Assembly: GCF_001434055.1 (NCBI RefSeq)
Contig: NZ_AZCZ01000007.1
Location: 1 to 64,000 of the forward strand
Origin: Levilactobacillus parabrevis ATCC 53295
GTDB taxonomy: Bacteria > Bacillota > Bacilli > Lactobacillales > Lactobacillaceae
Length of the DNA stretch: 64,000 nt
Direction of reading: 5' to 3'
Shown here in pieces: positions 47,361 through 55,459 of this stretch. A program made the position numbers and the translations under genes. Numbering within the stretch: position 1 is the first letter of the stretch; each line of letters starts with the position of its first letter. The notes beneath the pieces were generated by a model, which saw only the letters and a list, made by a program, of their open reading frames with translations, did not search any database and had not been told where the DNA came from.

Positions 47361-49157
47361 ATGAAATGGAAGTTTGGTTTAATTGCTTTGGGTGTTGCGG
47401 TTGGATTGAGTCCTCTATTTGGATATGGAAATAGTTGCAACAATTCTGAGGCTGGTCACAATTTCACCGTGGCACTGGCGGACGAAACCACGTCTGATGA
47501 AACTTATTCAGGAATTATCGGATCTGGAGAAAACAGCGTTCCTTGGACTTTAGAGGACGGCACCCTGACGCTTAAAGGTGGAACTTTGCCACCATTTTCT
47601 GGTAGACCCATAGATAAATATGGTGGGCAACTATTACATGATTTACAATTAGGAAACACCGCCGGCCTTACTGTAACCGACTTTAAGAATAAAGTCTCCA
47701 CCATAAATATTTCAAATACACTTACACTTAGTCCTGATTCATCCTATCTGTTTGCTGGTTTTCCAAATGTAACGAACTACTTAAACTTAAAGAATATCGA
47801 CGCTAGTCAAGTTACCGACATGTCCTCTATGTTCTACGCTAATTCTGCCCTACGAACATTCACAGCTCCTAAGTTTCTCGACGCAAACAATCATAGCCTT
47901 GCTACTATGTTCGGAATGGACCAGAAGCTCGTTTATCTAGATCTATCAGAAATTGATTCGAGCCACATTACTAGTATTAACAATTTAACCCAAAAATGTG
48001 CAATTTTACTGGTGATCAACCTAGCAAACTTTTCATCACAAAATATGAATAGCACCGATGGCTTTTCCAACATATTTGATGCCGACGATGTTGTTACGGA
48101 CATCACGCTGAGTCCCTCAATTATTCTTAATCAGACAACCGTTAAGGAACCCAATCTATCAATTGGCAGTTTTACCGGTAATTGGGTGGATGTTGGCAAT
48201 GGCAATGTTACTTTACTCAGCAAAACACCATCCCTCTTATATCACAACTTATCTGACAATTATCTCTATTACGATCCCAAAGGAAGTACCAGCTTCGATT
48301 CAACAGCTGCTCTATTTGCCGCGTACGATGGATCAGATTCTACACCGAGTGGAAATGTTCACTACGTGCTAGAACCTTCAGATACATCGCGAATTCCGGG
48401 GTCCCCTCCAGTTACACCGATACCAACACCTAACAACCCAGCTCCAACCGAACCCGACACTGCGACCTTTCAGCCCTTTGCCGTCACAGCCACCAAGAAA
48501 ATTGGGCTTTACAGTAGCAAGGACTTTTCGGCTGCTAGTCGCCTTGCCTGGTTCGTCCAAAAACCACAGCTGAAACAGCCGACCTTTACCGTCATCGGCA
48601 CGACTAAATCCACGGCCGGCAACGCCCGCTATCAAGTCCGCGACACCACTCGTGGTTCCGCGACTTATGGTCAGACTGGCTACATCACGACCCAATCAGC
48701 TTACGTCACCCGCACTTACTATGAGAGTGCCCCTGAAGTCGTGACGGTCATCAATCCGGGTGGCATCAACGGCTACAACTCCGCCGCGCTCAAGCAACCG
48801 CAGAAAGCCTATAAGCAAGGTACCCGACTCACCGTCAAAAAAGTCGTTACGCATAACGCCACGACGCGCTTCCTACTCACCAATGGCAAGTACGTCTCCG
48901 CTAACAAGCACTTTGTCACCGCTGGCCAGTATAAAGTGCCAACCAAGGTTCAGGCCAAGACTGCCGTTAATCGCTACGCCACAGTCAATCTGACAAAGAA
49001 GAATAAGCACTATCCGAAAAAGGCCCACGCTGTCTTTAAAGTCCTCGGCTGGGACTACTCCCGGGGAACCAGCACCACGACTGCCGGCACTCTGCGTTAC
49101 CGGGTCGCTGGCGGCTACATTACCGCTAATCCCAAGTACGTTAAGGCCCTCAATTAA
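47361..49157 (+). CDS. Secreted surface protein: BspA-like repeat region plus DUF5776-type C terminus
   Basis: A 598-residue exported protein. The signal peptide covers about 1-40, ending near ALADE. An N-terminal beta domain follows, with GTWTL-like GTLTLKGGTLPPF. Next come BspA/DUF285-type repeats built on IDASQVTDMSSMFYANSAL (about 145-260) and a Pro/Thr linker (about 345-370). The C terminus is made of SH3-like basic repeats such as VRDTTRGSATYGQTGYITT (about 375-598), resembling DUF5776. There is no LPXTG, so attachment is probably non-covalent through the basic repeats. Base composition shifts from A/T-rich to G/C-rich at the linker. The ribosome binding site is AGGGAGGGG. Confidence 0.8.
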   Translation: MKWKFGLIALGVAVGLSPLFGYGNSCNNSEAGHNFTVALADETTSDETYSGIIGSGENSVPWTLEDGTLTLKGGTLPPFSGRPIDKYGGQLLHDLQLGNTAGLTVTDFKNKVSTINISNTLTLSPDSSYLFAGFPNVTNYLNLKNIDASQVTDMSSMFYANSALRTFTAPKFLDANNHSLATMFGMDQKLVYLDLSEIDSSHITSINNLTQKCAILLVINLANFSSQNMNSTDGFSNIFDADDVVTDITLSPSIILNQTTVKEPNLSIGSFTGNWVDVGNGNVTLLSKTPSLLYHNLSDNYLYYDPKGSTSFDSTAALFAAYDGSDSTPSGNVHYVLEPSDTSRIPGSPPVTPIPTPNNPAPTEPDTATFQPFAVTATKKIGLYSSKDFSAASRLAWFVQKPQLKQPTFTVIGTTKSTAGNARYQVRDTTRGSATYGQTGYITTQSAYVTRTYYESAPEVVTVINPGGINGYNSAALKQPQKAYKQGTRLTVKKVVTHNATTRFLLTNGKYVSANKHFVTAGQYKVPTKVQAKTAVNRYATVNLTKKNKHYPKKAHAVFKVLGWDYSRGTSTTTAGTLRYRVAGGYITANPKYVKALN

Positions 49158-53980: not shown

Positions 53981-54196
53981 CACCTTTAAAAAAGTACGTT
54001 ATTTTGATTATTCAGGCAAAGTCCAGCAAGCAACATTCAAAAAAGTGCCATTTTTTGAATGTTCACGAGATTTTTGACCCGCAACATTAAAGAAATCGCG
54101 TTTTTTTGAATGTTGCGGGTAATTTTATGTGCCAACATTCAAAAATTCGTTGTTTTTTGAATGTTGAGCTTGTATTATTAAGCCAACATTCAAAAA
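53981..54196. repeat. 51-bp-phased palindrome array upstream of the Fic gene
   Basis: Three clear palindromes with arms AACATTCAAAAA and TTTTTTGAATGTT occupy 54032-54063, 54083-54114 and 54134-54165. A single left arm lies at 54185-54196. A diverged copy lies at 53981-54012, with 24 of 33 bases matching the next copy. All left arms start exactly 51 bp apart (53981, 54032, 54083, 54134, 54185). The 19-nt linkers and the 6-8-nt loops differ between copies. The last palindrome and the half-site flank a -10-like TATTAT (54173-54178). It is therefore most likely an operator array for the fic promoter. Confidence 0.85.
54173..54178 (+). promoter_or_regulatory. -10 element of the fic gene inside the palindrome array
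   Basis: TATTAT lies between the right arm ending at 54165 and the half-site starting at 54185. Transcription would start at about the half-site. Confidence 0.5.
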
Positions 54197-54220
54197 TATA
54201 TCAAGATTAGGAGGTTGCTT

Positions 54221-55459
54221 ATGACTACCCAAGAATATCCCAGTCTAAAATCCATGTATTACCAAAACCAAGCTGGCTATCAAGACGCCGTAAATCAGCG
54301 TCGGGATAACCTCCTAACGATAAAGACCGGCTTGTTAATTTCACCATTTAAACGTGGATTTAGAACAAGTGATCATTTTGAGATTTTTTATCTGCCCGTT
54401 TTAAAAATTAGCCAACTTGAGGAACAGATTACTAAATTTTCTAGTGAAATTGAAAAGAAGATGTCTGCACTCCCCCCAGTCGCACGCGACCAAGTATTTA
54501 TTAGCAACCTTATTGATGAACTACAGAGCACCAATGAAATTGAAAACGTCCGCAGCTCTCGGGAAGAATTGGGTACCGTTATCGATCGTATTAAACAAAA
54601 TAAAGGTGACAAAGGTCGTTTCTCTGGACTGGTCAACCAATATATCAAGTTTCAAGATAACAAATATAACAAGATTCACGATGTCCAAGACTTCCGAACA
54701 ATCTGGGACGAACTCGTTAGTCAAGAAATTAAGTCCGATGATCTCCCTGACGGCGAACAGTTTCGAAAGGATGGCGAAGTCATTCGTTCCGGTGACCGCG
54801 TTGTCCATCGCGGCGATGAATCCGAAGAACAAATTATAGCGGACCTAGGGAAACTGGTTATTGAAATGAATGATGATGACATTCCCTCGCTCCCCAAATG
54901 TTTTATTGCTCACTATTTCTACGAATATGTTCATCCCTTCTACGATGGAAATGGACGAACGGGACGTTTCATTGTCTGCTCCTATCTCTCACGTAAACTA
55001 GACATGATGTCCGCCATCACCTTCTCTTCTGCAATCGTTAAGAATAAGGATACTTACTACAAAGCATTTACAGAAATGGCGAATCCCTATAATGCCGGCG
55101 AGGCTACATTCTTTATTATTACCATGATGCAACTCTTACTATCTGGTCAACAGCAGGTTATTGAAAAGCTAGACGATGACATTGACCTTCTTCAAAAAGC
55201 GAACAGCTTGACTGATGATGCTCAGCTTGAGCAACCGGCCAAAAACATTCTGTTTATTCTGTGTCAAGCCACTATCTTCGGGAAATACGTTAAACCCCTG
55301 ACAGACAAGGCTCTATCTGAATATGCCGGTCTTAGTCGCTTCCGCTTAAATAAAGCCTTAGCCAGTTTGATTCAATCTGGCTATATTGAAACAACACAGG
55401 CCAACCCAAAGACTCACAGATTAACGCTCAAGACACAGCAAGCCTTGTTTTCTAACTAA
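54221..55459 (+). CDS. Class II Fic-domain AMP-transferase with C-terminal winged helix
   Basis: A 412-residue Fic protein, predicted to transfer AMP from ATP to protein hydroxyls. The catalytic loop HPFYDGNGRTGR (238-249) is complete. An N-terminal TNEIEN (104-109) fits the (S/T)xxxE(G/N) inhibitory helix, making it a self-inhibited class II enzyme that needs no separate antitoxin. Its last 70 residues form a winged helix-turn-helix (ALSEYAGLSRFRLNKALASL), so it could bind DNA, perhaps its own upstream array. The ATG at 54221 follows AGGAGG at 6 nt; the TTG at 54215 is rejected. Its A/T content is higher than that of neighbouring genes, hinting at transfer. Confidence 0.93.
   Translation: MTTQEYPSLKSMYYQNQAGYQDAVNQRRDNLLTIKTGLLISPFKRGFRTSDHFEIFYLPVLKISQLEEQITKFSSEIEKKMSALPPVARDQVFISNLIDELQSTNEIENVRSSREELGTVIDRIKQNKGDKGRFSGLVNQYIKFQDNKYNKIHDVQDFRTIWDELVSQEIKSDDLPDGEQFRKDGEVIRSGDRVVHRGDESEEQIIADLGKLVIEMNDDDIPSLPKCFIAHYFYEYVHPFYDGNGRTGRFIVCSYLSRKLDMMSAITFSSAIVKNKDTYYKAFTEMANPYNAGEATFFIITMMQLLLSGQQQVIEKLDDDIDLLQKANSLTDDAQLEQPAKNILFILCQATIFGKYVKPLTDKALSEYAGLSRFRLNKALASLIQSGYIETTQANPKTHRLTLKTQQALFSN

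Follow-up and report, generated by a model that had tools for sequence, protein, structure and literature searches.

A palindrome array in 51-bp phase lies upstream of a fic gene

The window, a stretch of 64,000 nucleotides of DNA from Levilactobacillus parabrevis ATCC 53295, carries a fic gene that is preceded by three clean 32-bp palindromes, one degenerate palindrome and one half-site, all spaced 51 bp from start to start. The architecture of the clean palindromes is AACATTCAAAAA-N8-TTTTTGAATGTT. The array, the candidate promoter elements and the gene are arranged as follows:

53981..54012, no strand: degenerate first palindrome, in 51-bp phase (phase score 40 from this unit)
54032..54063, no strand: operator-like palindrome 1, AACATTCAAAAA-N8-TTTTTGAATGTT (repeat and pattern searches)
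54083..54114, no strand: operator-like palindrome 2, two arm mismatches (repeat and pattern searches)
54134..54165, no strand: operator-like palindrome 3, overlapping the -35-like hexamer (repeat and pattern searches)
54150..54155, + strand: -35-like TTGTTT, weak, consensus match only (loose script)
54173..54178, + strand: -10-like TATTAT, between palindrome 3 and the half-site (loose script)
54185..54196, no strand: half-site, left arm alone, near the presumed transcription start
54209..54214, + strand: ribosome-binding site AGGAGG, 6 nt before the ATG (sequence)
54221..55459, + strand: fic, class II Fic protein (412 aa) with a C-terminal winged helix (Pfam, PADLOC, AlphaFold2, PDB match)

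The initial annotation had described 51-bp-phased palindromes upstream of a gene for a class II Fic protein with a winged helix, and this description is borne out by the positions, the 51-bp spacing, the shuffles and the assembly search. Visual comparison shows that the diverged unit beginning at 53981 shares 9 of the 12 arm letters. When up to three mismatches are allowed, the window palindrome finds no match in 100 shuffles of the window, and the full palindrome has no copy in the whole assembly outside the window array. The exact arm occurs seven times in the 2.6-Mb assembly, and six of these copies are located at the window array. Likewise, scanning all 64 kb for palindromes in phase reveals none with a score of at least 34 beyond the fic array, and viral contigs yield no match to the window's exact pattern.

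The candidate promoter, TTGTTT-17-TATTAT, would set its -35 element inside palindrome 3 and the half-site at the transcription start. A -10 element had been placed between the last arms of the array. A TATTAT hexamer does sit there, but the promoter is weak, coming from a loose scan and being absent from the list produced by a stricter one.

The unpaired palindrome centers are often rich in G and C (GCC, GGC or GCG), with an A-tract on one side and a T-tract on the other in either orientation, as exemplified by positions 54044-54051 of the window. Perhaps such centers serve as a shape signal for DNA bending. Elsewhere in the window, positions 47361-49157 encode a secreted-looking protein of 598 aa.

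The gene product is a class II Fic protein with a winged helix

The protein elements assigned from alignment and from structural modeling are listed below:

54530..54547, + strand: inhibitory motif TNEIEN, residues 104-109 (alignment)
54932..54967, + strand: catalytic loop HPFYDGNGRTGR, residues 238-249 (alignment)
55232..55423, + strand: winged helix, with helices at 338-353, 362-369 and 373-386 and the wing at 389-401 (AlphaFold2 model)

The inhibitory consensus in class II Fic proteins is (S/T)xxxE(G/N), and the window Fic carries this pattern as TNEIEN on the N-terminal side of its Fic motif. An inhibitory helix N-terminal to the Fic motif is what defines the class in the classification passages of PMC3667792. 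The Fic motif itself, HxFx(D/E)GNGRxxR as given in the motif description of PMC9755527, is present as HPFYDGNGRTGR, and residues H238, F240, D242-R246, G248 and R249 are invariant in all 16 aligned homologues. All three protein elements proposed from the letters alone, namely TNEIEN, a complete HPFYDGNGRTGR loop and a C-terminal winged helix, are present in the alignment and the AlphaFold2 model.

The window Fic matches Pfam PF02661 (3e-11) and the PADLOC SoFic model (E 4.2e-29, residues 75-395), but with 55.8 bits it does not reach the cut-off of 550 bits for the NCBIfam SoFic equivalog NF046030. Its AlphaFold2 model, built from an alignment of 34 sequences, has a pLDDT of 93. The nearest solved structures are those of Coxiella CbFic2 (8cil; Z 26.4, rmsd 7.9, 337 aligned) and SoFic (3eqx; Z 26.2, rmsd 4.0, 340 aligned). 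The segment between about residue 319 and residue 412 matches structurally the winged helices of MarR (3s2w, Z 9.9), Zur (4mtd, Z 9.7) and TFIIE (5gpy, Z 10.1). SoFic (SO_4266; PDB 3eqx/3zcn/3zec) and the window Fic model have the same fold, including the winged helix, at about 19% identity in the 3eqx alignment.

Phased palindromes recur upstream of fic homologues

Regions upstream of fic homologues were drawn from the family, the order, plasmids, public genomes and viral contigs. Among 122 such regions, 42 contain phased palindromes that score above the maximum of 244 dinucleotide shuffles and 80 fall below this threshold, whereas none of 120 control stretches, taken 450-750 bases upstream of the same fic genes, exceeds the shuffle maximum. 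The 42 arrays have periods of 51 bp (24 arrays), 52 bp (nine), 50 bp (four) and 41, 40, 46, 62 and 32 bp (one each), such that 37 of them have a 50-52 bp period. By a stricter count, a palindrome pair at 50-52 or 40.5-41.5 bp is found in 17 of 83 regions, compared to 1 of 83 and 0 of 80 in the controls and a single match in total in 20 shuffled sets. Dropped before these counts were L013, L092 and L094, which represent the same genes as L071, L044 and L055, respectively, as well as L222, L241, L242, L233, L253, L141 and all regions with fewer than 300 bases upstream (fewer than 350 in the 83-region count). The near-copies L089/L240, L028/L029, L031/L032, L050/L052 and L044/L145 were retained among the 42.

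An evident check of the original observation was whether orthologues share the array. Two Fic proteins from other genera, L071 (58% identity to the window Fic) and L015 (49%), are each encoded behind an array in 51-bp phase with much the same arms. The copy on an L. salivarius plasmid (L040, 47% identity) has a 41-bp period and different arms, and its palindromes are still 32 bp wide. Inspection by eye further reveals degenerate palindrome pairs 52 bp apart at L012 and L014 and traces of an array about 50 bp apart at L016, all three of which are missed by the scoring. Among Actinomycetota, Enteroscipio (L143) provides an example with a 51-bp period. Arm sequences vary widely among lineages, from AACATTCAAAAA to TGTATAGAAAATC and ATTATTGACAAAA, and the period is mostly kept while the arms change. 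Because the array lies 100-190 bp from the chosen start codon in some loci, overlap with the promoter is not general.

Arrays accompany 39 of the 116 Fic proteins placed in a tree, where these 39 are scattered yet clustered, requiring 21 changes versus a mean of 32.9 when shuffled. One array-less clade of five members includes the Fic homologues L061, L067 and L070, in none of which the catalytic or the inhibitory pattern could be recognized. Other arrangements were also noted. On viral contig L224, about 40-200 bases upstream of fic, there is a near-perfect 40-bp tandem repeat of the palindrome TATTTGATAAAATATCAAATA in at least four copies. At L182 (near 3169) and L217 (near 3231), palindromes in 41-bp phase are located just downstream of fic and not upstream.

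Array periods cluster near four and five helical turns

A distant set of SoFic-like homologues from many phyla comprises 69 loci (L152-L220), 62 of which have enough upstream sequence. Among these 62 regions, 25 are at or above the shuffle 99% point, eight of them at 41 bp, while five of 115 controls passed this point and three of the five lie above the shuffle maximum. The best period is 40-42 bp in 17 of the 62 regions, versus 15 of 115 controls and 24 of 310 shuffles. By itself, the distant set is only suggestive of a preference for 41-bp arrays.

The 41-bp signal nevertheless made a prediction, which was tested on the family of Flavobacterium solisilvae, whose genome contains L165. Among 27 new regions from this family, the best period is 39-42 bp in 20 and 40-42 bp in 18, whereas shuffles choose 40-42 bp in 26 of 310 cases. 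The 99% point is reached by 15 of the 27 regions, with 14 at 39-41 bp and one at 70 bp, and nine regions exceed the shuffle maximum; none of 30 control stretches reaches even the 99% point. In all, 31 regions of the family were scored, and those left out of the 27 are the discovery-set members L165, L273 (identical to L195) and L274 (identical to L209), together with L275, which is a second Fic of a discovery-set genome and has a best period of 35. L282 was too short for this test. Periods of 70 bp turn up in both the distant set and the Flavobacterium-family set. Overall, array spacing is clustered near 40-41 and 50-52 bp, corresponding to about four and five helical turns.

Arrays at sites without fic

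The arm pattern of the window occurs in five of 397 family genomes, at fic in three of them and, in the other two, at fic-less sites where a relative has fic. An array at unrelated loci without fic would have spoken against the association, and there is none among these 397 genomes. The first fic-less array (L099; G010:C5:30974) has window-type arms and resides at a brnQ-HAD site, where the arms of two palindromes are unchanged from the window and those of a third show three changes. The second (L098; G237:C3:82491) lies behind nth, as does the array of the relative G220, which has fic. Both fic-less arrays reflect either recent loss of fic or a remaining function. We also observed that both keep the arms of most units intact.

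The two arrays of genome G010 differ in their arms; one, with a 50-bp period, precedes the genome's own divergent fic (L010), and the other is at the fic-less brnQ-HAD site. Among 30 brnQ loci of the genus, arm words behind brnQ are found only in the window and in G010. Genomes G005, G022 and G028, in which a HAD-like gene starts after brnQ, have no arm words behind brnQ and no fic at E<=1e-20. An initial scan of genome contigs with the single window Fic protein as query found nothing.

Operator likeness follows Fic relatedness within genera

At 37 loci, pairs of Fic proteins that are 45-90% identical have operators that resemble each other more than those of random pairs (74 pairs, mean distance 0.380, permutation p 0.0006), with identity bins that were chosen after the Mantel-type tests. 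This likeness is carried mostly by the pairs within a genus (19 pairs, 0.306, p 0.0004), and the pairs across or of unknown genera show only a trend (55 pairs, 0.405, p 0.063); the genus label is missing for nine of the 37 loci, which were counted as different, and L145 was placed in the genus of its near-copy L044. Same-genus pairs whose Fic proteins are less than 45% identical do not have similar operators (16 pairs, 0.439, p 0.61), and thus shared genus alone does not make operators alike.

Hand-curated operators correlate with the winged helix at rho 0.094 (p 0.084) and with the Fic core at 0.144 (p 0.0125). With the Fic core held fixed in a partial Mantel test, the correlation between operator and winged helix is -0.027 (p 0.69; 37/38 hand-curated loci). 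Automatic operator extraction, run without L021, L035, L060 and L240, gave a flat relation with the winged helix for 33 loci, some of whose operators are in the wrong register. Since array and fic are neighbors, the likeness of operators could be plain co-inheritance.

These results bear on the possibility that a separate host regulator, rather than Fic, binds the array and controls fic. Operator similarity does not track the winged helix specifically, across genera it relates to Fic identity only as a trend, and binding by Fic is something that we infer. A host regulator is nonetheless unlikely, given that much the same arms are found in three genera beside close fic orthologues, that unrelated Fic proteins within one genus have unlike operators, that a single genome (G010) holds two different arrays, and that phased arrays before fic span several phyla; an informal look also brought no shared neighbor gene to our notice. 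Because the likeness across genera is only a trend, we have slightly lowered our confidence in autoregulation and slightly raised that in a host regulator. Taken together, the relation between operators and Fic proteins, the two unlike arrays of G010 and the survey of brnQ loci favor Fic over a host regulator as the putative binder, insofar as sequence comparisons can indicate.

We also considered that the array might act as RNA, with transcribed hairpins forming a leader or, in the manner of type III toxin-antitoxin systems, a repeat RNA antitoxin. In ToxIN, a type III system with a repeat RNA antitoxin, repeats precede the toxin gene, and the repeats ahead of a toxin-like gene in the window resemble this arrangement. 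The array transcript would fold very stably (z -6.47), but stable folding is expected of any palindrome. Arm mismatches exhibit no G-U bias, with eight G-U versus six A-C in 516 arm pairs, which are small numbers from hand-chosen palindromes with ten centers dropped. Moreover, GCC and GGC loops are found in both orientations, the array ends in a half-site, and an RNA would not be expected to show a spacing of nearly whole helical turns. All 18 Rfam matches stay below their gathering scores. With folding, Rfam and the (small) mismatch counts giving nothing in its favor, an RNA role was rejected as very improbable.

Finally, the repeats might belong to a mobile element that brought fic, as its iterons, its centromere or its integration site. 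In keeping with this, fic is patchy in the genus (four of 35 genomes at E<=1e-20), its homologues are also located on plasmids and viral contigs, and arrays outlive fic at two loci. We give this idea hardly any credence because the arrays lie 5' of fic genes that occupy different places in the chromosome and the stretches 450-750 bases upstream are empty (0/120).

A model for autorepression by Fic

We consider it likely that the array is the operator of fic, to which Fic dimers bind side by side on the palindromes and thereby repress the gene. The C-terminal winged helices of one Fic dimer would touch both arms of a single 32-bp palindrome. Adjacent dimers would be separated by about five helical turns (about four in the sister group), and this spacing would place neighboring dimers on the same face of the DNA, where their binding would be cooperative. 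In the window, the promoter-proximal palindrome and the half-site would then cover the -35 element and the start region. Once occupied, the array would shut off fic and keep a potentially toxic AMP-transferase scarce. That phased arrays recur before many fic homologues points to a widespread self-control switch. The initial annotation had proposed that Fic, or a partner controlled by AMP, binds the array and represses fic, which would couple AMPylation to transcription; the arrays shared by orthologues and the published autorepression by CccR agree with this proposal in part, and the coupling to AMPylation is its most speculative step.

A precedent for autorepression is CccR of Yersinia pseudotuberculosis, a protein composed of a Fic domain and a C-terminal HTH that represses its own gene by binding an inverted repeat near the -35 and -10 elements, as described in the EMSA, footprint, ITC and reporter passages of PMC9755527. 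The window Fic likewise has a C-terminal HTH-type domain, according to its AlphaFold2 model and structural matches, and its gene has inverted repeats at its own, weakly predicted, promoter. The geometries are different: the CccR operator is one inverted repeat, AGATAATCAT-N26-ATGATAATCT, with 10-bp arms and a 26-bp spacer, and the operator passages of PMC9755527 describe no phased array, whereas the window has 32-bp palindromes in a 51-bp array. Also unlike the window Fic, CccR is presented there as a secreted effector. Negatively autoregulated toxin-antitoxin operators of the AbiEi type are reported to have a repressor binding cooperatively to inverted repeats, as we propose for the window; the repressor in those systems is the antitoxin, whereas in the window it would be the AMP-transferase itself.

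Among other relatives, the winged helix of CbFic2 from Coxiella burnetii binds DNA, and DNA drives dimerization and alters enzyme activity; DNA was proposed to restrain CbFic2 or to favor its AMP-removing state (DNA-binding passages of PMC10628234). Its structure, 8cil, is among the top matches to the window Fic model. CbFic2 was studied with random DNA, and those passages name no specific operator for it, whereas the window has an operator-like array. According to the same passages, SoFic had yet to be shown to bind DNA at that time.

Autorepression by CccR and the effect of DNA on the CbFic2 enzyme together make it possible that the array is also a DNA cofactor, in which side-by-side dimers would hold Fic in a restrained or AMP-removing state and the role of antitoxin would fall to a stretch of DNA. 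By analogy with these two proteins the idea can be entertained, although we regard it as improbable. If it were true, loss or degradation of cellular DNA during phage attack would free active enzyme and open the fic promoter.

Concerning novelty, the initial annotation considered an array of this kind to be undescribed. This holds for our searches of an open-access library, which covers few preprints and no subscription articles: they brought up no Fic gene with a phased operator array. The array proves to be more general than first noted. CccR is the only Fic-HTH protein for which these searches turned up a published operator. Accordingly, autorepression by a Fic-HTH protein is already known from CccR, and the helically phased operator array, as predicted here from its sequence, would be new. 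The arrays constitute concrete predicted binding sites for dozens of Fic proteins in several phyla, and the phase rule (about 40-41 or 50-52 bp) is open to a simple insertion experiment.

Winged-helix Fic proteins occur widely, one group of them being known as a phage-defense toxin. EcSofic, a toxic AMP-transferase of the Sofic type that acts in phage defense, is restrained by AS1, an antitoxin whose small gene of 47 codons lies downstream (antitoxin passages of PMC12249575). The gap of 91 bases that separates fic from the following gene in the window is too short for such an antitoxin gene, although an overlapping gene may exist. The arrays thus show where to seek control of a toxin-like enzyme that has no evident antitoxin gene beside it. 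SoFic-like genes are also present on IMG/VR viral contigs (L221-L254), several within a few kilobases of a contig end, where defense genes that are carried along would be expected.
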